Shown here: positions 1-5,765 of the stretch, one piece after another
Position numbering within the stretch: position 1 is the first letter of the stretch
How the letters are laid out: each line of letters starts with the position of its first letter
Assembly (NCBI GenBank): GCA_025458465.1
Contig: JALOSK010000136.1
Coordinates: 1 to 5,765, forward strand
From: Sandarakinorhabdus sp.
GTDB lineage: Bacteria; Pseudomonadota; Alphaproteobacteria; Sphingomonadales; Sphingomonadaceae
DNA: 5,765 nucleotides
Reading direction: 5' to 3'
Position numbers and translations under genes: made by a program
The notes under the pieces: model-generated
What the model saw: only the letters and a program-made list of their open reading frames with translations
Databases searched by the model: none
Told to the model about the DNA's origin: nothing

Positions 1-551
1 GCGCCATCCAGCTCGTTGGCCGAAGGCTGGCGGCTGCCATCGCCGGCGGCCAGCGTGCTGGCGCCATAGGGCGTGCCGCCGCTGATTTCGGTCATGATGG
101 TGTTGCCGGCAAAGCTGTAGGGCAGGCCCACGATGATCATGCCGTGATGCAGCAGCGTGGTGTGGATGCTGGTCAGCGTGGTTTCCTGGCCGCCATGCTG
201 GCTGGCGGTGGAAACGAACGCGCCGCCCAGCTTGCCGATCAGCGCGCCCTTGGCCCACAGGCCGCCGGTCTGATCGAGGAAATTGCGCATCTGCGCCGCC
301 ATGTTGCCAAAGCGGGTGGGCGTGCCGATGATGATGGCATCATAATCGGCCAGTTCATTGGGATCGGCGATCGGGGCGGCCTGCTCGGTCTTGTAGTAGA
401 AGGCTGCGGCCGTATCGGCGGGCACGAGTTCCGGCACCCGCTTCACCACGGCTTCGACGCCGTCCACGCTGGCCGCGCCCTCGGCCACGGCATTGGCCAT
501 GGTTTCGATATGACCCCAGGAGGAGTAATAGAGAACGAGGACGCGGGCCAT
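1..551 (-). CDS. wrbA: NAD(P)H:quinone oxidoreductase, WrbA family (3' end cut by window edge)
   Basis: A cytosolic flavodoxin-fold FMN enzyme. The WrbA family reduces quinones by two electrons with NAD(P)H and so avoids semiquinone radicals. The 183 visible codons start [19 protein letters not shown], where the SSWGHIET loop (residues 10-17) is the FMN phosphate-binding loop. Further WrbA hallmarks follow: GTPTRFGNM (76-84), FLDQTGGLW (91-99), the [10 protein letters not shown] loop (114-123), HHGM (135-138), GGTPYGAS (158-165) and GDGSRQPS (170-177). E. coli WrbA is 198 residues, so only about 16 C-terminal residues should lie beyond position 1. The ATG at 551 has a modest GAAAGG ribosome site 7 nt upstream. 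The gene starts 16 nt after the receptor stop codon, which suggests cotranscription. Family assignment is secure. A specific role in this cluster, such as handling a quinone made during catabolism or general redox protection, is inference. Confidence 0.95.
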
Positions 552-567: not shown

Positions 568-2775
568 TCAGAAGTTGAAGCTGGCTTCGATGCCATAGCG
601 GCGCGGGCGCGCCTTGAACACGAAGCCACCGGGGGAAAATTCGGCGTTGTAGATTTCGTTGAACAGGTTCTGCGCAAACGCCGTCACGCTGAATTTCTTC
701 GACGAAACGCCCAGACGCATGTTCACCAGATCGACCGGATCGCGGCTGGTGGAGTTTTCGACATCCCACCAGGTGCGGCCGATGCGGTTGTAATCCACCC
801 GCCAGTTCAGATCGAGATCGTCGGCGATCGGGCGGCTGTAGTTGATGCCAGCGTTCAGCGTGTAGCGGCTGATCAGCGGCAATTCGTTGCCGATGAAGGC
901 CGGGTTGGCGAACTGCTTGATATTGCTGTCCGTAAAGCCAAGGCCCACGTTGATATCAAGCCCCTTCATCGGACGCAGCGTGGCATCAGCCTCGAAGCCC
1001 TTGATCTGGGCCAGCGGCACGTTGCCCAGGTTCTGCGTCGAGTTGGCGGCCAGGAACACGAAGAAATAGCTGTTCTCGGTGCGCGTGCTGAAGGCGGCGG
1101 CGTTGAAGGTCAGCAGCCGGTCTTCGGTCTGGGTCTTGACGCCGACTTCCCAGGTCTCGGCCACTTCCGGCTGGAAAATGTCGCTCACGCCCACGATGCC
1201 GTTGGCTGCCGCAACCGCGCCCACGCCGGTCTGGTTGAAGCCGCCGGAACGGAAGCCGCGGCTCCAGCCACCATAAAGCGTCACATTGTCCACCGGCCGA
1301 TAGCTCAGGGTGAACTTGGGCTGCCACGACTGGAAGCTCTGGCGCCGCACTTCACCGGTCACGCCCTGCGGGAAACCCGGCACGTTGGGCAGGAAACCGG
1401 TGGGGGTGAGCGTGGTGTTGCGACGGTTGTCGCGGTCATAACGCAGCGACGCATCAAGACGCAGCTGTTCGGTGATCTTCCAGCTGGCGTTGCCGAACAC
1501 GGCCCAGGCGAAGTTGCGCTGCGCGTCCGACAGGAAGCTGAACTGCGGGTTGTTGCCGGTCAGGCGCGGTTCGCGGAACACCGGGAACACGCCATTGCCG
1601 GTGTCCACCATGTTGCCGGTGGAGATGAAGCGGTTGGTGCCGACCATGTAGGTGCCCAGCGTCACCTGCACAGGCTTGTCGGCCGGGGACTCATAGCGGA
1701 ACTCGTTCGACCAGGCGTCCACTTCCAGGAACTGGCTCTGGTTCAGGTCGAAGCCGTTGCCCGGGCCAAGGATTCCCTCGAACAGGTTGAAGAAGAAGCT
1801 GTCCGGGATCGGCTTGAAGTCGAAGGCGTCGCCGGTCAGCACTTCGGTCAGGCGGTCATAGCTCAGTGTGTTGCTGAGCGTGCCCCAATCGGCCTGATAG
1901 CGCACCTTGACGGCGGCATTCCACATTTCGCGGTCGTTCTGGCCGGGGTTGTTCACCTGCACCGGCAGCGAGGTGTCGTTCACGTCGCCGACGATGTTGA
2001 AATAGAGTGCCTGGGTCTGCAGGTTCGAATAGGCGACGCGCAGATCGACGTCGAAGTTGCTGGTGGGCGACCACAGCAGGTTGCCGCGCAGGTTGAGATC
2101 CTTGATGGGATCGGCCTTCTCGCCCAGGAATTCGTTCTGGATGAAGCCATCGGTGTCATACCAGCTGCCCGACAGACGGAACTTCAGATTTTCCGCAACG
2201 GGCCCGGAAAGATTGCCGCGCACATAATAGCCAAAGCCATTGTCGATCCCGGCCGTCACCTTGCCCGACAGATAATCGGTGGGGGCCTTGGACTTGATGA
2301 TGATGGCACCGCCGATGGCGTTGCGGCCCCACAGGCCGCCCTGCGGGCCCTTCAGCGCTTCGATCTGCTCGATGTCGAACAGTTCCTGGTTGAACTGCGC
2401 CGGGTTCACCTGCTGGATGCCGTCCACGATCACCGCAACCGAAGGCTCGCTGTTGCGGGCCTGGGTGATGCCGCGGATGATCACGAACGCGTTGCCGGCG
2501 TTCTGGGTCTGCACCAGATTGACGTTGCTGGTCAGCGCTATGAAGTCGGCCGGGCGCTCGATGCCGGCCTGCTGGATGGTGGCGGCATTGAACGCCGCGA
2601 TAGCCGCCGGGGTTTCCTGCAGCGTGCCCGAACGGCGCGTGGCGGTGACGATGATCTCGCCGCTGTCTTCGGCTTCGGCTGCGGCCGTCGCGGTCTGGGC
2701 GAAGGCCGGCAGCGCGGCAGCGGCCAGCGCGGTGGTGACCATCAGGCGCGCAACGGTACGGAAATTGGCTTGCAT
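568..2775 (-). CDS. TonB-dependent outer-membrane receptor
   Basis: An outer-membrane beta-barrel transporter of 735 residues that would import a substrate using TonB-ExbB-ExbD energy. A Sec signal peptide (residues 1-26) ends in ALPAFA before Q27. A TonB-box-like EIIVTATRR is at 40-48. The plug domain follows to about 160, with [15 protein letters not shown] and the conserved [17 protein letters not shown] at 142-158; the commoner family form has TLYGRN instead of GLWGRN. The rest is aromatic-rich barrel, including [15 protein letters not shown], and it ends in ASFNF with the terminal Phe expected for BAM recognition. I chose the ATG at 2775 because a strong GGGGAGGT site lies just upstream. 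An in-frame TTG at 2790 would add five residues (MGRFL) and would overlap that site. The substrate is not evident: no siderophore gene is nearby, and the receptor shares a predicted operator with a CoA-transferase and a citryl-CoA-lyase-like gene, so a carbon source is more likely than iron (inference). Confidence 0.95.
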
Positions 2776-2814: not shown

Positions 2815-2870
2815 GGGACATTGACCCGATTGCCACGCGAACCAGAGGCCGGTGACACATCAGTGCGCGG

Positions 2871-2897
2871 CCTTAACCCTTCGTCATGCGAAGTCAA
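2871..2897 (-). promoter_or_regulatory. Candidate promoter of the receptor-wrbA operon
   Basis: Minus strand TTGACT (2897-2892) is a good -35 box lying in the spacer between the two operator palindromes. About 15-16 nt downstream is TTAAGG (2876-2871), a weak -10 candidate. The divergent region has a similar arrangement, TTGCCT then TAAGG, relative to its own operator. If correct, the leader before the receptor ATG is roughly 90 nt and a bound regulator would cover the -35 box. The -35 match is visible; the -10 is poor. Confidence 0.35.
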
Positions 2898-2911
2898 GTT
2901 CGATATGCGAA
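2880..2911. promoter_or_regulatory. Predicted operator B: two tandem TTCG-N5-CGAA palindromes
   Basis: Two 13-bp palindromes, TTCGTCATGCGAA (2880-2892) and TTCGATATGCGAA (2899-2911), are separated by 6 bp. They lie in the non-coding gap 104 nt upstream of the receptor ATG. The same four half-sites with the same 5-6-5 spacing occur at 5248-5279, and the second palindrome here is the exact reverse complement of the first one there. The 19-bp repeat period puts the two dyads on nearly the same helix face, which suits a dimer-of-dimers regulator. IclR proteins of the PcaR/PobR type bind sites with TTCG-like half-sites, so the regulator encoded at 3030-3830 is the obvious candidate. The repeat is seen directly; the binding partner is inferred. 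Confidence 0.75.
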
Positions 2912-3029: not shown

Positions 3030-3830
3030 TCAGGCGCCAGCCAGGCTCCGGGCAAGCTTTGGAAAGCGGCGCAGTTCGGCCTCGATGGCGCCAGCGGCTT
3101 CCTGCAACAACGGCAGGCGGGTGCGCACCAGCTCATCCTGGCTGATCCGCGTGGTGGACGTGGAGCAGTTGATCGCCGCCACGACATGGCCGGCGGCATC
3201 GAACAGCGGCACCGCCACCGAAACAATGCCATAATCCAGTTCGTCGAGCGCGCTGTCGTAGCGCCGCTCCACCACGGTGCGCAGGCGGGTGCGGAAACTG
3301 TCGGGATCGGTGATGGTGCGCTCGGTCAGGCGGGCAAGCGGGCCGCCTTCCAGATAGGCCTCAACCGCTGCATCGCCCTGAAACGCCAGCAACACCTTGC
3401 CCATCGACGTGGCGTTCAACGGAAAGCGCGTGCCCACACCGGCGCCAAGCCGAATGCGCCGGTTCGACGGGATATGTACGACATAGAGGATCTCGCGCCC
3501 TGACCGTACCGCCAGGCTCACCGAATCGCCCGTCTGCGCCGACAGCGCCTGCAGTGGCGGTACCGCCACCGTTTCGATGTTCATCGAGTTCAAATAGGCC
3601 GATCCGAACGCCAGCACCTCTGGCGTCAGCAGGAAGCGCCGCCCATCCTGCCTGATATAGCCCAAGGCAACCAACGTGTTGAGGCAGCGCCTTGCCACGG
3701 CAGGCGGCAACGCCGTGGCCGCAGCAACTTCCGACAGCGCCATTTCCGGCCGCGTCGCATCAAAGGCCCGCAGCACCTTGAGGCCGCGTTCCAGCGTGGA
3801 CAGATATTCCGGATCCTTCTCGCCACCCAT
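3030..3830 (-). CDS. IclR-family transcriptional regulator (PcaR/PobR-like)
   Basis: A cytosolic DNA-binding regulator of a catabolic pathway. From the ATG at 3830 it has 266 residues. The N-terminal winged helix-turn-helix (about 8-70) contains YLSTLERGLKVLRAFD, then LSEVAAATALPPAVARRCLNTLVALGYI as the recognition region. The C-terminal IclR effector-binding domain (about 85-255) carries GVGTRFPLNATSMGKVLLA (131-149), LDYGIVSVAVPLFD (198-211) and VVAAINCSTST (216-226). This pattern matches regulators of protocatechuate and 4-hydroxybenzoate catabolism (PcaR, PcaU, PobR). It ends with TGA at 3030. An in-frame TTG at 3866, directly after the CoA-transferase TAG, would add 12 residues (TAREKAGQVSR in front of the Met). 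It has a GGCGG-like site about 5 nt away, whereas the ATG lacks a clear one, so the start is open. Likely ligand: the CoA-transferase/lyase pathway substrate or an intermediate. Likely targets: the paired palindromes at 2880 and 5248. Confidence 0.93.
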   Translation of the reverse strand: MGGEKDPEYLSTLERGLKVLRAFDATRPEMALSEVAAATALPPAVARRCLNTLVALGYIRQDGRRFLLTPEVLAFGSAYLNSMNIETVAVPPLQALSAQTGDSVSLAVRSGREILYVVHIPSNRRIRLGAGVGTRFPLNATSMGKVLLAFQGDAAVEAYLEGGPLARLTERTITDPDSFRTRLRTVVERRYDSALDELDYGIVSVAVPLFDAAGHVVAAINCSTSTTRISQDELVRTRLPLLQEAAGAIEAELRRFPKLARSLAGA

Positions 3831-3866: not shown

Positions 3867-5033
3867 CTATTCCGCCGCCTCAGCGCGCCGGCCCAGTACG
3901 GCCTGATTGTCCTGCCCCAGCAGCGGCGGCGCGGTGACGGCCAGATTGCGCTGTCCATCAAAGGAAATTGGCGAGCGGATGGTGCGGAACTCGCCCATCG
4001 GCCCCGGCGCCGAAACCTGCAGTTGCAAGTGCCTTGCCTGTTCGTTTTCCAGCACTTCCACCGTGGTGGCCACCGCCGCCGAGGGCACCTCCAGTTCGCG
4101 CAGCCGCGCCAGCCAGTCGGCCCGCGGGCGGGTGGCGAAGATCGGCGCCAGATAGGCGACCACATCCTCATAATGGGCGATGCGGGCATCCCGGCTGGCA
4201 AAGGCCGGCTGGGCCAGCATGTCCGCGCGCTCGACCGCTTCGGCCAGGTTTTCCCAGAACTTGGGCGGGCTCGACATGTGCAGGGCCAGCCACAGGCCAT
4301 CGCTGCACTGGAACACATAGGATTGCGAAACATGCGGGCGGCTATAGGGGCCCATCACCTGATCGGCGGCAAAAAGATGCGTGAAATCATCGAGGTTAAA
4401 GTGGGCCATGGCCTCGAACATGGAGGTTTCCACAAGCCCGCCCTGCCCGGTCTGCTGCCGGCGATAGAGCGCGGCGAGCACGCCCTGCGCGGTGTAGAAG
4501 CCAGTCATGGCATCGGCGATGGCGGGCCCAACCACGCGCGGGTGTTCGGGGTTGACCAAAAGGCGCAGGAACCCGCTGGCGGCCTGGGCCACGGTGTCAA
4601 ACGCCGGACGGTCGGCATCGGGGCCGCTGCTGCCAAAGCCGGAGATGCTGGCATAGACAAGGCGCGGGTTGATGGCTTGCAGCCGATCGAAGTCCACGCC
4701 AATCTTCTTCGCCACGCCGGGCCGGAAATTTTGAATGAACACATCGGCTTCGCTGACAAGCTTGTCGAATGCCGCCAGATCATCGGCGCCCCGCGTGTCG
4801 AGCGTGATCGATTCCTTGTTGCGATTGTAGGTCTGGAAGTGCGGGGAATAGAGCGTGCCCTTGTACGCCCGGAACGGATCGCCGGTGCCCGGCTGCTCCA
4901 CCTTGATCACCCGTGCACCCAGATCGGCCAGCAGCATGCCAGCGCACGGGCCGGTGATGAACGTGCCCATTTCCAGCACCGTCACACCCGCCAGCGGCAG
5001 CACCGCGGTTGTCGCAGCTGTTTGCGTTGCCAT
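3867..5033 (-). CDS. Family III CoA-transferase (CaiB/BaiF type)
   Basis: A cytosolic enzyme that moves CoA from a donor thioester to a carboxylic acid through an aspartyl mixed-anhydride mechanism. The 388 residues match the usual ~390-430. Signature stretches in order: LEMGTFITGPCAGMLLADLGARVIKVEQPGTGDPFR (20-54), NRNKESITLD (70-79), VFIQNFRPGV (98-107), ASISGFGSSGPDADRPAFD (128-146), and VGPAIADAMTGFYTAQGVLAAL (168-189), in which Asp174 aligns with the catalytic Asp of formyl-CoA transferase. The C-terminal part is complete (WLARLRELEVPSAAV, SPISFDG, PLLGQDN). I start it at the ATG at 5033 because AAGGGG lies 7 nt upstream; a GTG one codon earlier is too close to that site. The stop codon abuts the regulator gene. 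Donor and acceptor are unknown. The divergent lyase suggests a citrate- or citramalate-like hydroxy acid as acceptor (inference), but members of this family are not predictable by sequence alone. Confidence 0.95.
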   Translation of the reverse strand: MATQTAATTAVLPLAGVTVLEMGTFITGPCAGMLLADLGARVIKVEQPGTGDPFRAYKGTLYSPHFQTYNRNKESITLDTRGADDLAAFDKLVSEADVFIQNFRPGVAKKIGVDFDRLQAINPRLVYASISGFGSSGPDADRPAFDTVAQAASGFLRLLVNPEHPRVVGPAIADAMTGFYTAQGVLAALYRRQQTGQGGLVETSMFEAMAHFNLDDFTHLFAADQVMGPYSRPHVSQSYVFQCSDGLWLALHMSSPPKFWENLAEAVERADMLAQPAFASRDARIAHYEDVVAYLAPIFATRPRADWLARLRELEVPSAAVATTVEVLENEQARHLQLQVSAPGPMGEFRTIRSPISFDGQRNLAVTAPPLLGQDNQAVLGRRAEAAE

Positions 5034-5040
5034 CACCCAT

Positions 5041-5046: not shown

Positions 5047-5140
5047 CACCAGCAGCGCCGAAGCATCCACAAACGGCGCCTTCCAGGGCCATGTTGTCCC
5101 GGCGAAGGCACCAAACTCGCAGGCTTTGAGCGCTTGCGGA

Positions 5141-5173
5141 CACCCGAAACGCACCATTTGCGTTGTTCGTGTG
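5141..5173. repeat. Imperfect inverted repeat upstream of the CoA-transferase gene
   Basis: The perfect core is AACGCA-CCATT-TGCGTT (5148-5164). Pairing continues outward after a 2-nt bulge, with CACCCGAA (5141-5148) opposite TTCGTGTG (5166-5173), giving arms of about 12-13 paired bases. It contains CGAA and TTCG half-sites, though with spacing unlike the operators. The octamer CCCGAAAC at 5143 recurs at 5176. It could be a second regulator site or a hairpin in the CoA-transferase mRNA leader. Confidence 0.45.
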
Positions 5174-5230
5174 CGCCCGAAACCTGCTGGACAGACCCCA
5201 CAGCATCAGCCGCGACCCTGCCCGCCCAGC

Positions 5231-5259
5231 TTGCTTCCCTTATGCTTTTCGCATATCGA
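5231..5259 (+). promoter_or_regulatory. Candidate promoter of the lyase gene
   Basis: TTGCTT (5231-5236), a 17-bp spacer and TATCGA (5254-5259) are arranged like a sigma-70 promoter. The -10 box lies inside the first operator palindrome, so a bound regulator would block it, and transcription would start near 5266. The -35 and spacing are acceptable; the -10 is a weak match. Confidence 0.35.
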
Positions 5260-5265
5260 AGGCAA
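5237..5265 (-). promoter_or_regulatory. Candidate promoter of the CoA-transferase-iclR operon
   Basis: On the minus strand TTGCCT (5265-5260) occupies the 6-bp spacer between the two palindromes plus one base, and TAAGGG (5242-5237) follows after 17 nt. The receptor operator has TTGACT at the equivalent place with TTAAGG downstream. The parallel is suggestive, but the -10 is poor, and a nearer promoter inside the long leader is not excluded. Confidence 0.3.
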
Positions 5266-5279
5266 GTTCGTATTTCGAA
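5248..5279. promoter_or_regulatory. Predicted operator A: two tandem TTCG-N5-CGAA palindromes
   Basis: Palindromes TTCGCATATCGAA (5248-5260) and TTCGTATTTCGAA (5267-5279) are separated by GGCAAG. Half-site order and spacing are identical to the copy at 2880-2911, whose spacer is GTCAAG. The element ends 16 nt before the lyase ATG and 4 nt before its ribosome site, a position suited to repression of the lyase gene. It also lies upstream of the divergent CoA-transferase-iclR unit, so it may allow autoregulation. The IclR-family protein of this cluster is the most likely ligand (inference). Confidence 0.78.
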
Positions 5280-5295: not shown

Positions 5296-5765
5296 ATGCG
5301 CATCGGCAAGCAGGACGCTCCCTTCACCGCCATCTGCACCTCCGACACCCACCACATCAAGGTGCGCGGGAAGGATCTGACCGGCGAAATCATCGGCAAC
5401 ACCGATTTCACCACCTATTTCTGGATGCTCGTCACCGGCCAGGTGCCCACCGACACCCAGAAGTTCTTTGCCAATGCCGTGCTGTGCGCCATTGCCGAAC
5501 ACGGCCTCGTGCCCTCGGTGGTCGCCGCCCGCATGACCTATGCCGCAGCGCCCGAAGCCTTCCACGGCGCTGTTGCCGCCGGGCTGCTGGGCTGCGGCAG
5601 CGTGGTGCTGGGTTCTGCCGAAGTCGCCGGGCGCTTCCTGGCGCAGGTGGTGGCCAGCAGCGATCCGGCCGCCGAAATCCGGCTCTTGCGTGCCGAAAAG
5701 AAGGCCATCCCCGGCTTTGGCCATCCCCAGCACAGCGAAGGCGATCCGCGCGCCAACCTGCTGCT
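5296..5765 (+). CDS. Citryl-CoA lyase-like / short citrate-synthase-fold protein (3' end cut by window edge)
   Basis: The 156 visible codons belong to the citrate synthase superfamily. H90 in the APEAFHGAV segment corresponds to the first catalytic His (E. coli GltA His264), and H143 in IPGFGHP, followed by DPRAN at 150-154, corresponds to the second (His305 in GFGHRVYKNYDPRA). The catalytic Asp (GltA Asp362) would lie past the edge. The first His is reached after only 90 residues, against 264 in GltA, so the long N-terminal part of true citrate synthase is absent. This matches the short (~260-270 residue) proteins annotated as citryl-CoA lyase, which resemble the C-terminal domain of ATP-citrate lyase and cleave citryl-CoA to oxaloacetate and acetyl-CoA. 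The openings RGKDLTGEIIG and FWMLVTGQVPT also fit that group. The divergent CoA-transferase could supply the CoA-ester substrate. The real substrate may be another 3-hydroxy-3-carboxyacyl-CoA, and a condensing activity cannot be excluded. Confidence 0.88.
   Translation, partial: MRIGKQDAPFTAICTSDTHHIKVRGKDLTGEIIGNTDFTTYFWMLVTGQVPTDTQKFFANAVLCAIAEHGLVPSVVAARMTYAAAPEAFHGAVAAGLLGCGSVVLGSAEVAGRFLAQVVASSDPAAEIRLLRAEKKAIPGFGHPQHSEGDPRANLL

Follow-up and report, generated by a model that had tools for sequence, protein, structure and literature searches.

The window analysed here, the whole of a 5765-base contig, contains two copies of a 32-bp paired palindrome, TTCG-N5-CGAA-N6-TTCG-N5-CGAA, and both are predicted to be operators of the IclR-family regulator encoded in the same gene cluster. 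The proposal as a whole is that this IclR protein would repress the receptor-wrbA, CoA-transferase-IclR and lyase units until it is released by an effector, and we put the probability of this reading, from sequence comparison, at roughly 0.7. Binding of the IclR protein to both operators is the firmest part of the proposal and is very probable.

The source genome is incomplete (2.5 Mb, 75.9% complete), and among named genomes it stands nearest to Sandarakinorhabdus (Sphingomonadales). Four genes of the window are on the minus strand, namely a WrbA-type NAD(P)H:quinone oxidoreductase (3..551; NF002999 and TIGR01755 above cut-off), which is cut by the contig end, a TonB-dependent receptor (568..2775, start at 2775; PF00593 and PF07715), the IclR-family regulator (3030..3830, stop at 3030; PF09339 and PF01614), which is the likely binder of both operators, and a CaiB-type family III CoA-transferase (3867..5036, start at 5033 or 5036; PF02515). 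A citryl-CoA-lyase-like protein with a citrate synthase fold is encoded on the plus strand (5296..5765, ATG at 5296) and is also cut by the contig end. A full-length relative of this protein was closest among PDB sequences to citryl-CoA lyase 6hxp, and the names among the best 120 of 7965 matches in the lyase search were citryl-CoA lyase and citrate synthase only. By the ORF coordinates, the CoA-transferase gene is followed after a 36-bp gap by the IclR gene on the same minus strand and the two are probably one transcript. In the four relatives searched (G001, G004, G008 and G011), match coordinates place a VOC gene ∼100–120 bp beyond wrbA on the same strand, so it is probably part of the receptor unit in this genus. 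The window contig stops before the VOC position and the VOC homologue of the window genome is on another contig (C372). Because of the gene families in the cluster its pathway seems to be catabolic; no description of it was found in the excerpts of open-access literature searched.

Operator A (2880..2911, minus strand) lies in non-coding DNA between the start of the TonB receptor and the stop of the IclR gene, before the receptor-wrbA unit. Operator B (5248..5279, assigned to neither strand) is also non-coding and lies between the divergent CoA-transferase and lyase-like genes, with 16 bp between its end and the lyase-like ATG. Each operator consists of tandem palindromes with centres 19 bp apart, and all four palindromes are exact. 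These were the only matches in the window at up to three mismatches. In 200 dinucleotide shuffles of the window the mean was 0.03 matches and the maximum one, two being found in none, thus the two exact sites originally predicted at these positions are far above chance. It had also been claimed that TTCGCATATCGAA (5248–5260) is the exact reverse complement of TTCGATATGCGAA (2899–2911), and this was confirmed by the sequence. The further claim that the half-site bases and spacings are identical held, but the treatment of the linker bases as free did not, since the linkers GTCAAG and GGCAAG agree at 5/6 bases and a TTG in the linker is near-invariant in relatives. An imperfect inverted repeat with 18-nt arms, 72% complementary, and a 5-nt gap was also seen at 5136–5176, between the CoA-transferase start and operator B.

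Within the incomplete window genome, the exact pattern occurred only at the two window sites. Allowing up to three mismatches gave six places (two exact, two with two mismatches and two with three) and the reversed-pattern control gave four, so only the two exact sites stand out.

The predicted binder belongs to the IclR family, as both domains scored above cut-off (PF09339, 62.1 bits; PF01614, 148 bits). As the original prediction had it, this is the one obvious regulator of the cluster, being the only one among the five window proteins scanned. The description of it as a PcaR/PobR type was right in that the best NCBIfam model was TIGR02431 (PcaR/PcaU/PobR), but the score of 255.2 bits is below the cut-off of 284.75 bits and membership of that subfamily was rejected. 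Judged from the gene content of the window (TonB receptor, WrbA, CaiB-type CoA-transferase and citryl-CoA-lyase-like protein), the regulator does not appear to control beta-ketoadipate genes, and the cluster genes are not pca or pob. When 81 orthologues were compared, the most frequent residue had a mean frequency of 0.907 over residues 41–58 (turn and recognition helix), as against 0.821 in the whole HTH domain, 0.743 in the effector domain and 0.757 over the entire protein. The recognition helix was thus better conserved than the other stretches compared; A44, R47, R48, C49, L50 and T52 are invariant in it, and the aligned segment of 8eju, a Pca-regulon regulator, is RAAVRRCLHTL.

The operator fits the published kind of IclR group 1, having a core of TTCG-N5-CGAA mostly without the outer G/C. 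Group 1, which in the excerpts consulted of PMC8222616 (Suvorova and Gelfand 2021) includes PcaR, PcaU and PobR, is given the motif class GTNCG-N5-6-CGNAC. The TNCG-N5/6-CGNA core of this class is present in the four window palindromes, but the outer G and C of GTNCG-N5-CGNAC are mostly absent; in the profile of 56 A sites column 0 was T in 37 and G in 1, and column 14 was C in 32. The same excerpts describe tandem palindromes with centres 18–22 nt apart in 94 IclR orthologous groups, a range that contains the 19 nt of both window sites. They also place IclR sites near the translation start and state that most known members control their own operon and one or two adjacent ones (PMC8222616). 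The PcaU site is given as TTTGTTCGATWATCGMACAMA and shares a TTCG-N5-CG core with the operators found here (PMC8222616, in part). The PcaU site has three boxes, in contrast to the two palindromes of each operator here. PheR of Sphingobium sp. SHPJ-2 is, in the part of PMC13273656 drawn upon, an IclR-family repressor of a catabolic operon in a sphingomonad with effects on TonB functions, but its pathway differs. Its recognition motif is given there as GCAACG; this is absent from operators A and B and PheR-type recognition was rejected. The passages obtained from PMC5343134 and PMC6771000 concern other regulons or general lists.

Co-occurrence of the motif with the IclR gene was scored in 24 genomes drawn from the genus and 397 drawn from the family, 11 being common to both and 410 distinct. 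A match with E at most 1e-60 counted as an IclR orthologue (56–100% identity in the family genomes), and scoring in the family search was limited to six first-look candidates per genome. The exact motif was found in 17/24 genus genomes, and those with the IclR orthologue were exactly these 17; distant IclR paralogues with 35–38% identity are also present in the genus. For the family the motif was found in 37/397 genomes and the IclR orthologue in 35/397, with the motif in 35/35 of the latter. For the 410 distinct genomes combined, the exact motif was present in 43/43 with an IclR orthologue and 2/367 without. The reversed pattern was found in 1/397 family genomes. Both exceptions belong to one genus (G312 and G147) and have an identical site with AAAGGAGG in the linker (5166–5197 of L131 and 4986–5017 of L132). 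IclR and lyase matches were absent from these two genomes at the cut-offs used, a CaiB relative (33%) lies a few kb from the motif in L131, and the motif in both was treated as unrelated to the IclR operator. One genome (G019) had two contigs, L102 and L135, each with an IclR gene and a site A, perhaps because of duplication or a mixed assembly.

As the motif adjoins the IclR gene, this co-occurrence is partly linkage. It may be argued that the motif is the operator of some other regulator travelling with the cluster, the IclR protein doing something else, since the two sites stand on either side of the IclR gene and linkage alone would give co-occurrence. The main control for linkage was therefore provided by genomes with the lyase but without the IclR gene, all from this family. 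The lyase was found in 53/397 family genomes, of which 35 had IclR and motif and 18 had no IclR orthologue, and the exact motif was present in 0/18 of the latter. All of these 18 lyase loci (L246–L263) were fetched and their best motif matches had 4–5 mismatches, within the range of 3–6 obtained from shuffled sequence. A CoA-transferase relative was beside the lyase in 16/18; in the vicinity, at least one MetE-like relative was labelled in 13/18 and a VOC relative in 11/18. A scan of 10 proteins from L258, L260 and L262 revealed no recognisable DNA-binding regulator. In L258 the lyase has beside it a GMC oxidoreductase, a P450 and two metallo-beta-lactamase-fold proteins. The absence of the motif from these genomes speaks against another regulator, as do the lack of any second regulator among the scanned window proteins, the persistence of the motif in gammaproteobacteria with rearranged clusters (below) and the half-site core and tandem spacing, which are as published for IclR proteins (PMC8222616, in the excerpts consulted). 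This alternative is regarded as improbable and binding by the cluster's own IclR protein is preferred.

Conservation was examined further in 81 loci, comprising the window and the best 80 of 95 relatives from an IclR scan of named genomes (52–89% identity); these are partly the same genomes as in the genus and family sets. The relatives kept were sphingomonads, erythrobacters, other alphaproteobacteria and gammaproteobacteria. The exact motif was present in 79/81 loci and L162 and L212 had it with one mismatch, the best match in one shuffle of each of the 81 loci having 3–6 mismatches. Varying the spacing gave 140 exact matches at an inner spacing of 5 and a linker of 6 and none in these 81 loci at the 111 other combinations (inner spacing 2–8, linker 0–15). 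Eleven other half-sites, obtained by permuting TTCG and adding palindromic partners, gave no matches at 5/6/5, and over all spacings scanned only GCTT and TGTC gave a match, one each. The idea that the pattern is chance or a repeat artefact without function has practically nothing left to it, as 0.03 matches would be expected in the window, the reversed control was found in 1/397 and 0/20 genomes and the spacing scan gave 140 against 0. These figures and the shuffles led to the rejection of a chance or low-complexity origin.

In the neighbourhoods of 42 relatives, site A was before the receptor and site B between the CoA-transferase and the lyase, save for early-ending contigs and rearrangements. 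The sites are thus kept before orthologous genes, and the lack of such conservation, which had been named as grounds for giving up the original prediction, was not found. Gammaproteobacterial loci, where IclR identity falls to 52–57%, had the exact motif in 12/12 cases, nine of them between the lyase and the receptor. The receptor-wrbA unit of L118 is inverted and on the opposite flank of the cluster, preceded by its own site, and that of L119 is ∼2 kb from the IclR gene and has kept its own site. L109 has site B only; its genome (G264), 100% complete in two contigs, gave no match to the receptor at E 1e-60. The operator has therefore moved, been inverted or been lost together with the receptor operon. 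This rule fits L128, L129 and L130 less well, where the cluster is rearranged and the sites, some of them weaker matches (one or two mismatches), precede other genes. The receptor match was in two pieces in L107 (7121–9224), L120 (7043–9156, oriented) and L162 (7168–8865), which may reflect frameshifts or assembly errors.

The range of the regulon was examined in 20 of the 43 IclR-bearing genomes. All 39 forward matches at up to one mismatch were inside the IclR cluster, no distal member outside it being found in these 20 genomes at this threshold, and the reversed pattern was found in 0/20. The regulator thus looks local. Scatter of the motif through the genome had also been named as grounds against the original prediction and was not seen, the exact motif of the window genome occurring only in the window and the matches in the 20 genomes only in the IclR cluster. 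A census of positions, using two overlapping sets with 123 loci, contained 235 sites at up to one mismatch. There were 101 in the gap between CoA-transferase and lyase, 99 before the receptor, 13 in the gap between receptor and lyase, eight before a VOC-family gene, two before MetE-like genes, one before the CoA-transferase alone, one between IclR and the receptor and 10 with no assignable gene. The VOC-family gene has its own operator at up to one mismatch, 85–144 nt upstream, in L120, L121, L153, L154, L160, L166, L167 and L204 and at two mismatches in L129 and L212; MetE-like genes have their own operator in L121 and L175 (one mismatch) and in L120 and L214 (two mismatches). It had been proposed that the receptor-wrbA and CoA-transferase/lyase genes form one regulon and that the motif would serve to find further members. 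The comparative tests (43/43 against 2/367, and 0/18) argue for the single regulon, but as a finder of members the motif gave none outside the cluster in the 20 genomes at up to one mismatch, and the extra members were neighbouring genes in other species.

The location of the operators relative to possible promoters was examined by aligning 72 A sites and 61 B sites. Of the A sites, 60 were alphaproteobacterial, 11 came from gammaproteobacteria and L212, and one, an overlapping second site in L168, was dropped; the profiles were made from the 56 A and 55 B alphaproteobacterial sites left after removal of similar ones. The half-sites were selected for and are hence uninformative in the profile, but the linker and flanks were unselected. 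The linker of operator A has a putative -35 element on the minus strand, TTGACT (2892..2897), and TTGAC was present in 58/60 alphaproteobacterial A sites. It would be followed after a 16-bp spacer by a putative -10 element, TAAGGC (2870..2875), a weak match to consensus, with TA at columns 37–39 in 57/60 A sites against 0–13% in windows further down. For operator B, in the CoA-transferase direction and again on the minus strand, the candidate elements are TTGCCT (5260..5265; TTG at columns 15–17 in 60/61 B sites) and, after a 17-bp spacer, TAAGGG (5237..5242; also a weak consensus match, TA at column 38 in 59/61). Placing the -35-like TTGACT at columns 15–20 gives spacers of 16–18, nearly always 17 for B. 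The 11 other A sites had TTG in eight and TA at columns 37–39 in 10, with a higher background (0–36%). TTG is missing from the linker in L162 (A and B), L207, L209, L214 and the second overlapping site of L168, and also in L128/L199, L129 and L165. A consensus promoter scan of the window found no promoter at operator A or B, so the promoter claim is one from conservation. The conserved TTG(A/C) of the linker and the TA are likely -35 and -10 elements, and the operators would then overlap likely core promoters.

This overlap suggests repression and is the reason why, given binding, repression relieved by an effector is considered the probable main effect. Two IclR dimers would bind each 32-bp operator, one per palindrome. 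With 19 bp, about two turns, from centre to centre, they would lie on the same side of the helix and form a tetramer. Towards the receptor and towards the CoA-transferase, the linker between the dimers would hold the -35-like TTG(A/C) and the second palindrome would occupy the spacer as far as the -10-like TA; the -35 region would then be hidden under a bound tetramer. Towards the lyase gene, the region covered at operator B would be the -10 or the start. The IclR gene is directly behind the CoA-transferase gene, and operator B would therefore make the regulator control its own expression as well. Release of the IclR protein by an effector, which probably comes from the pathway, would switch on all three units.

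The same operators and regulator could instead act mainly in effector-dependent activation, perhaps with repression of the lyase direction only. PcaU and PobR, both relatives within the IclR family, work as activators; PcaR of P. putida reportedly does both, activating and repressing from the -35 and -10 positions. The window protein is nearest to the PcaR/PcaU/PobR model and its PDB matches include 8eju and 5hpf (effector domain, p-hydroxybenzoate hydroxylase activator); moreover, the distal palindrome would be centred near -43 if transcription started ∼7 bp after the -10-like hexamer. However, the proximal palindrome fills the spacer between the putative -35 and -10 elements in both minus-strand promoters, which suits blocking, as does the distance of 11–22 nt from operator B to the lyase start in 40/60 cases; it is 29–195 nt in the other 20/60. 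Activation as the main effect is accordingly thought rather unlikely, and repression is the favoured reading.

A broader interpretation, on which we are evenly balanced, is that the operator and the promoter make up a single movable cassette. In it an IclR operator of four half-sites would contain the -35 box in its linker and be followed at once by the -10, and the cassette would have accompanied receptor and enzyme operons on their way from alphaproteobacteria to gammaproteobacteria. Such a cassette would mark an undescribed uptake-and-breakdown pathway with the TonB receptor, WrbA, the VOC protein, the CaiB transferase, the citryl-CoA-lyase-like enzyme and MetE-like proteins. The analysis gives a clear predicted regulator-operator pair and a gene list for the pathway. 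The motif has enough specificity to identify this regulon in raw genomes, and a natural control is available in those genomes that have the same enzymes and lack the regulator. The substrate of the pathway could then be sought via the compound that releases the IclR protein.
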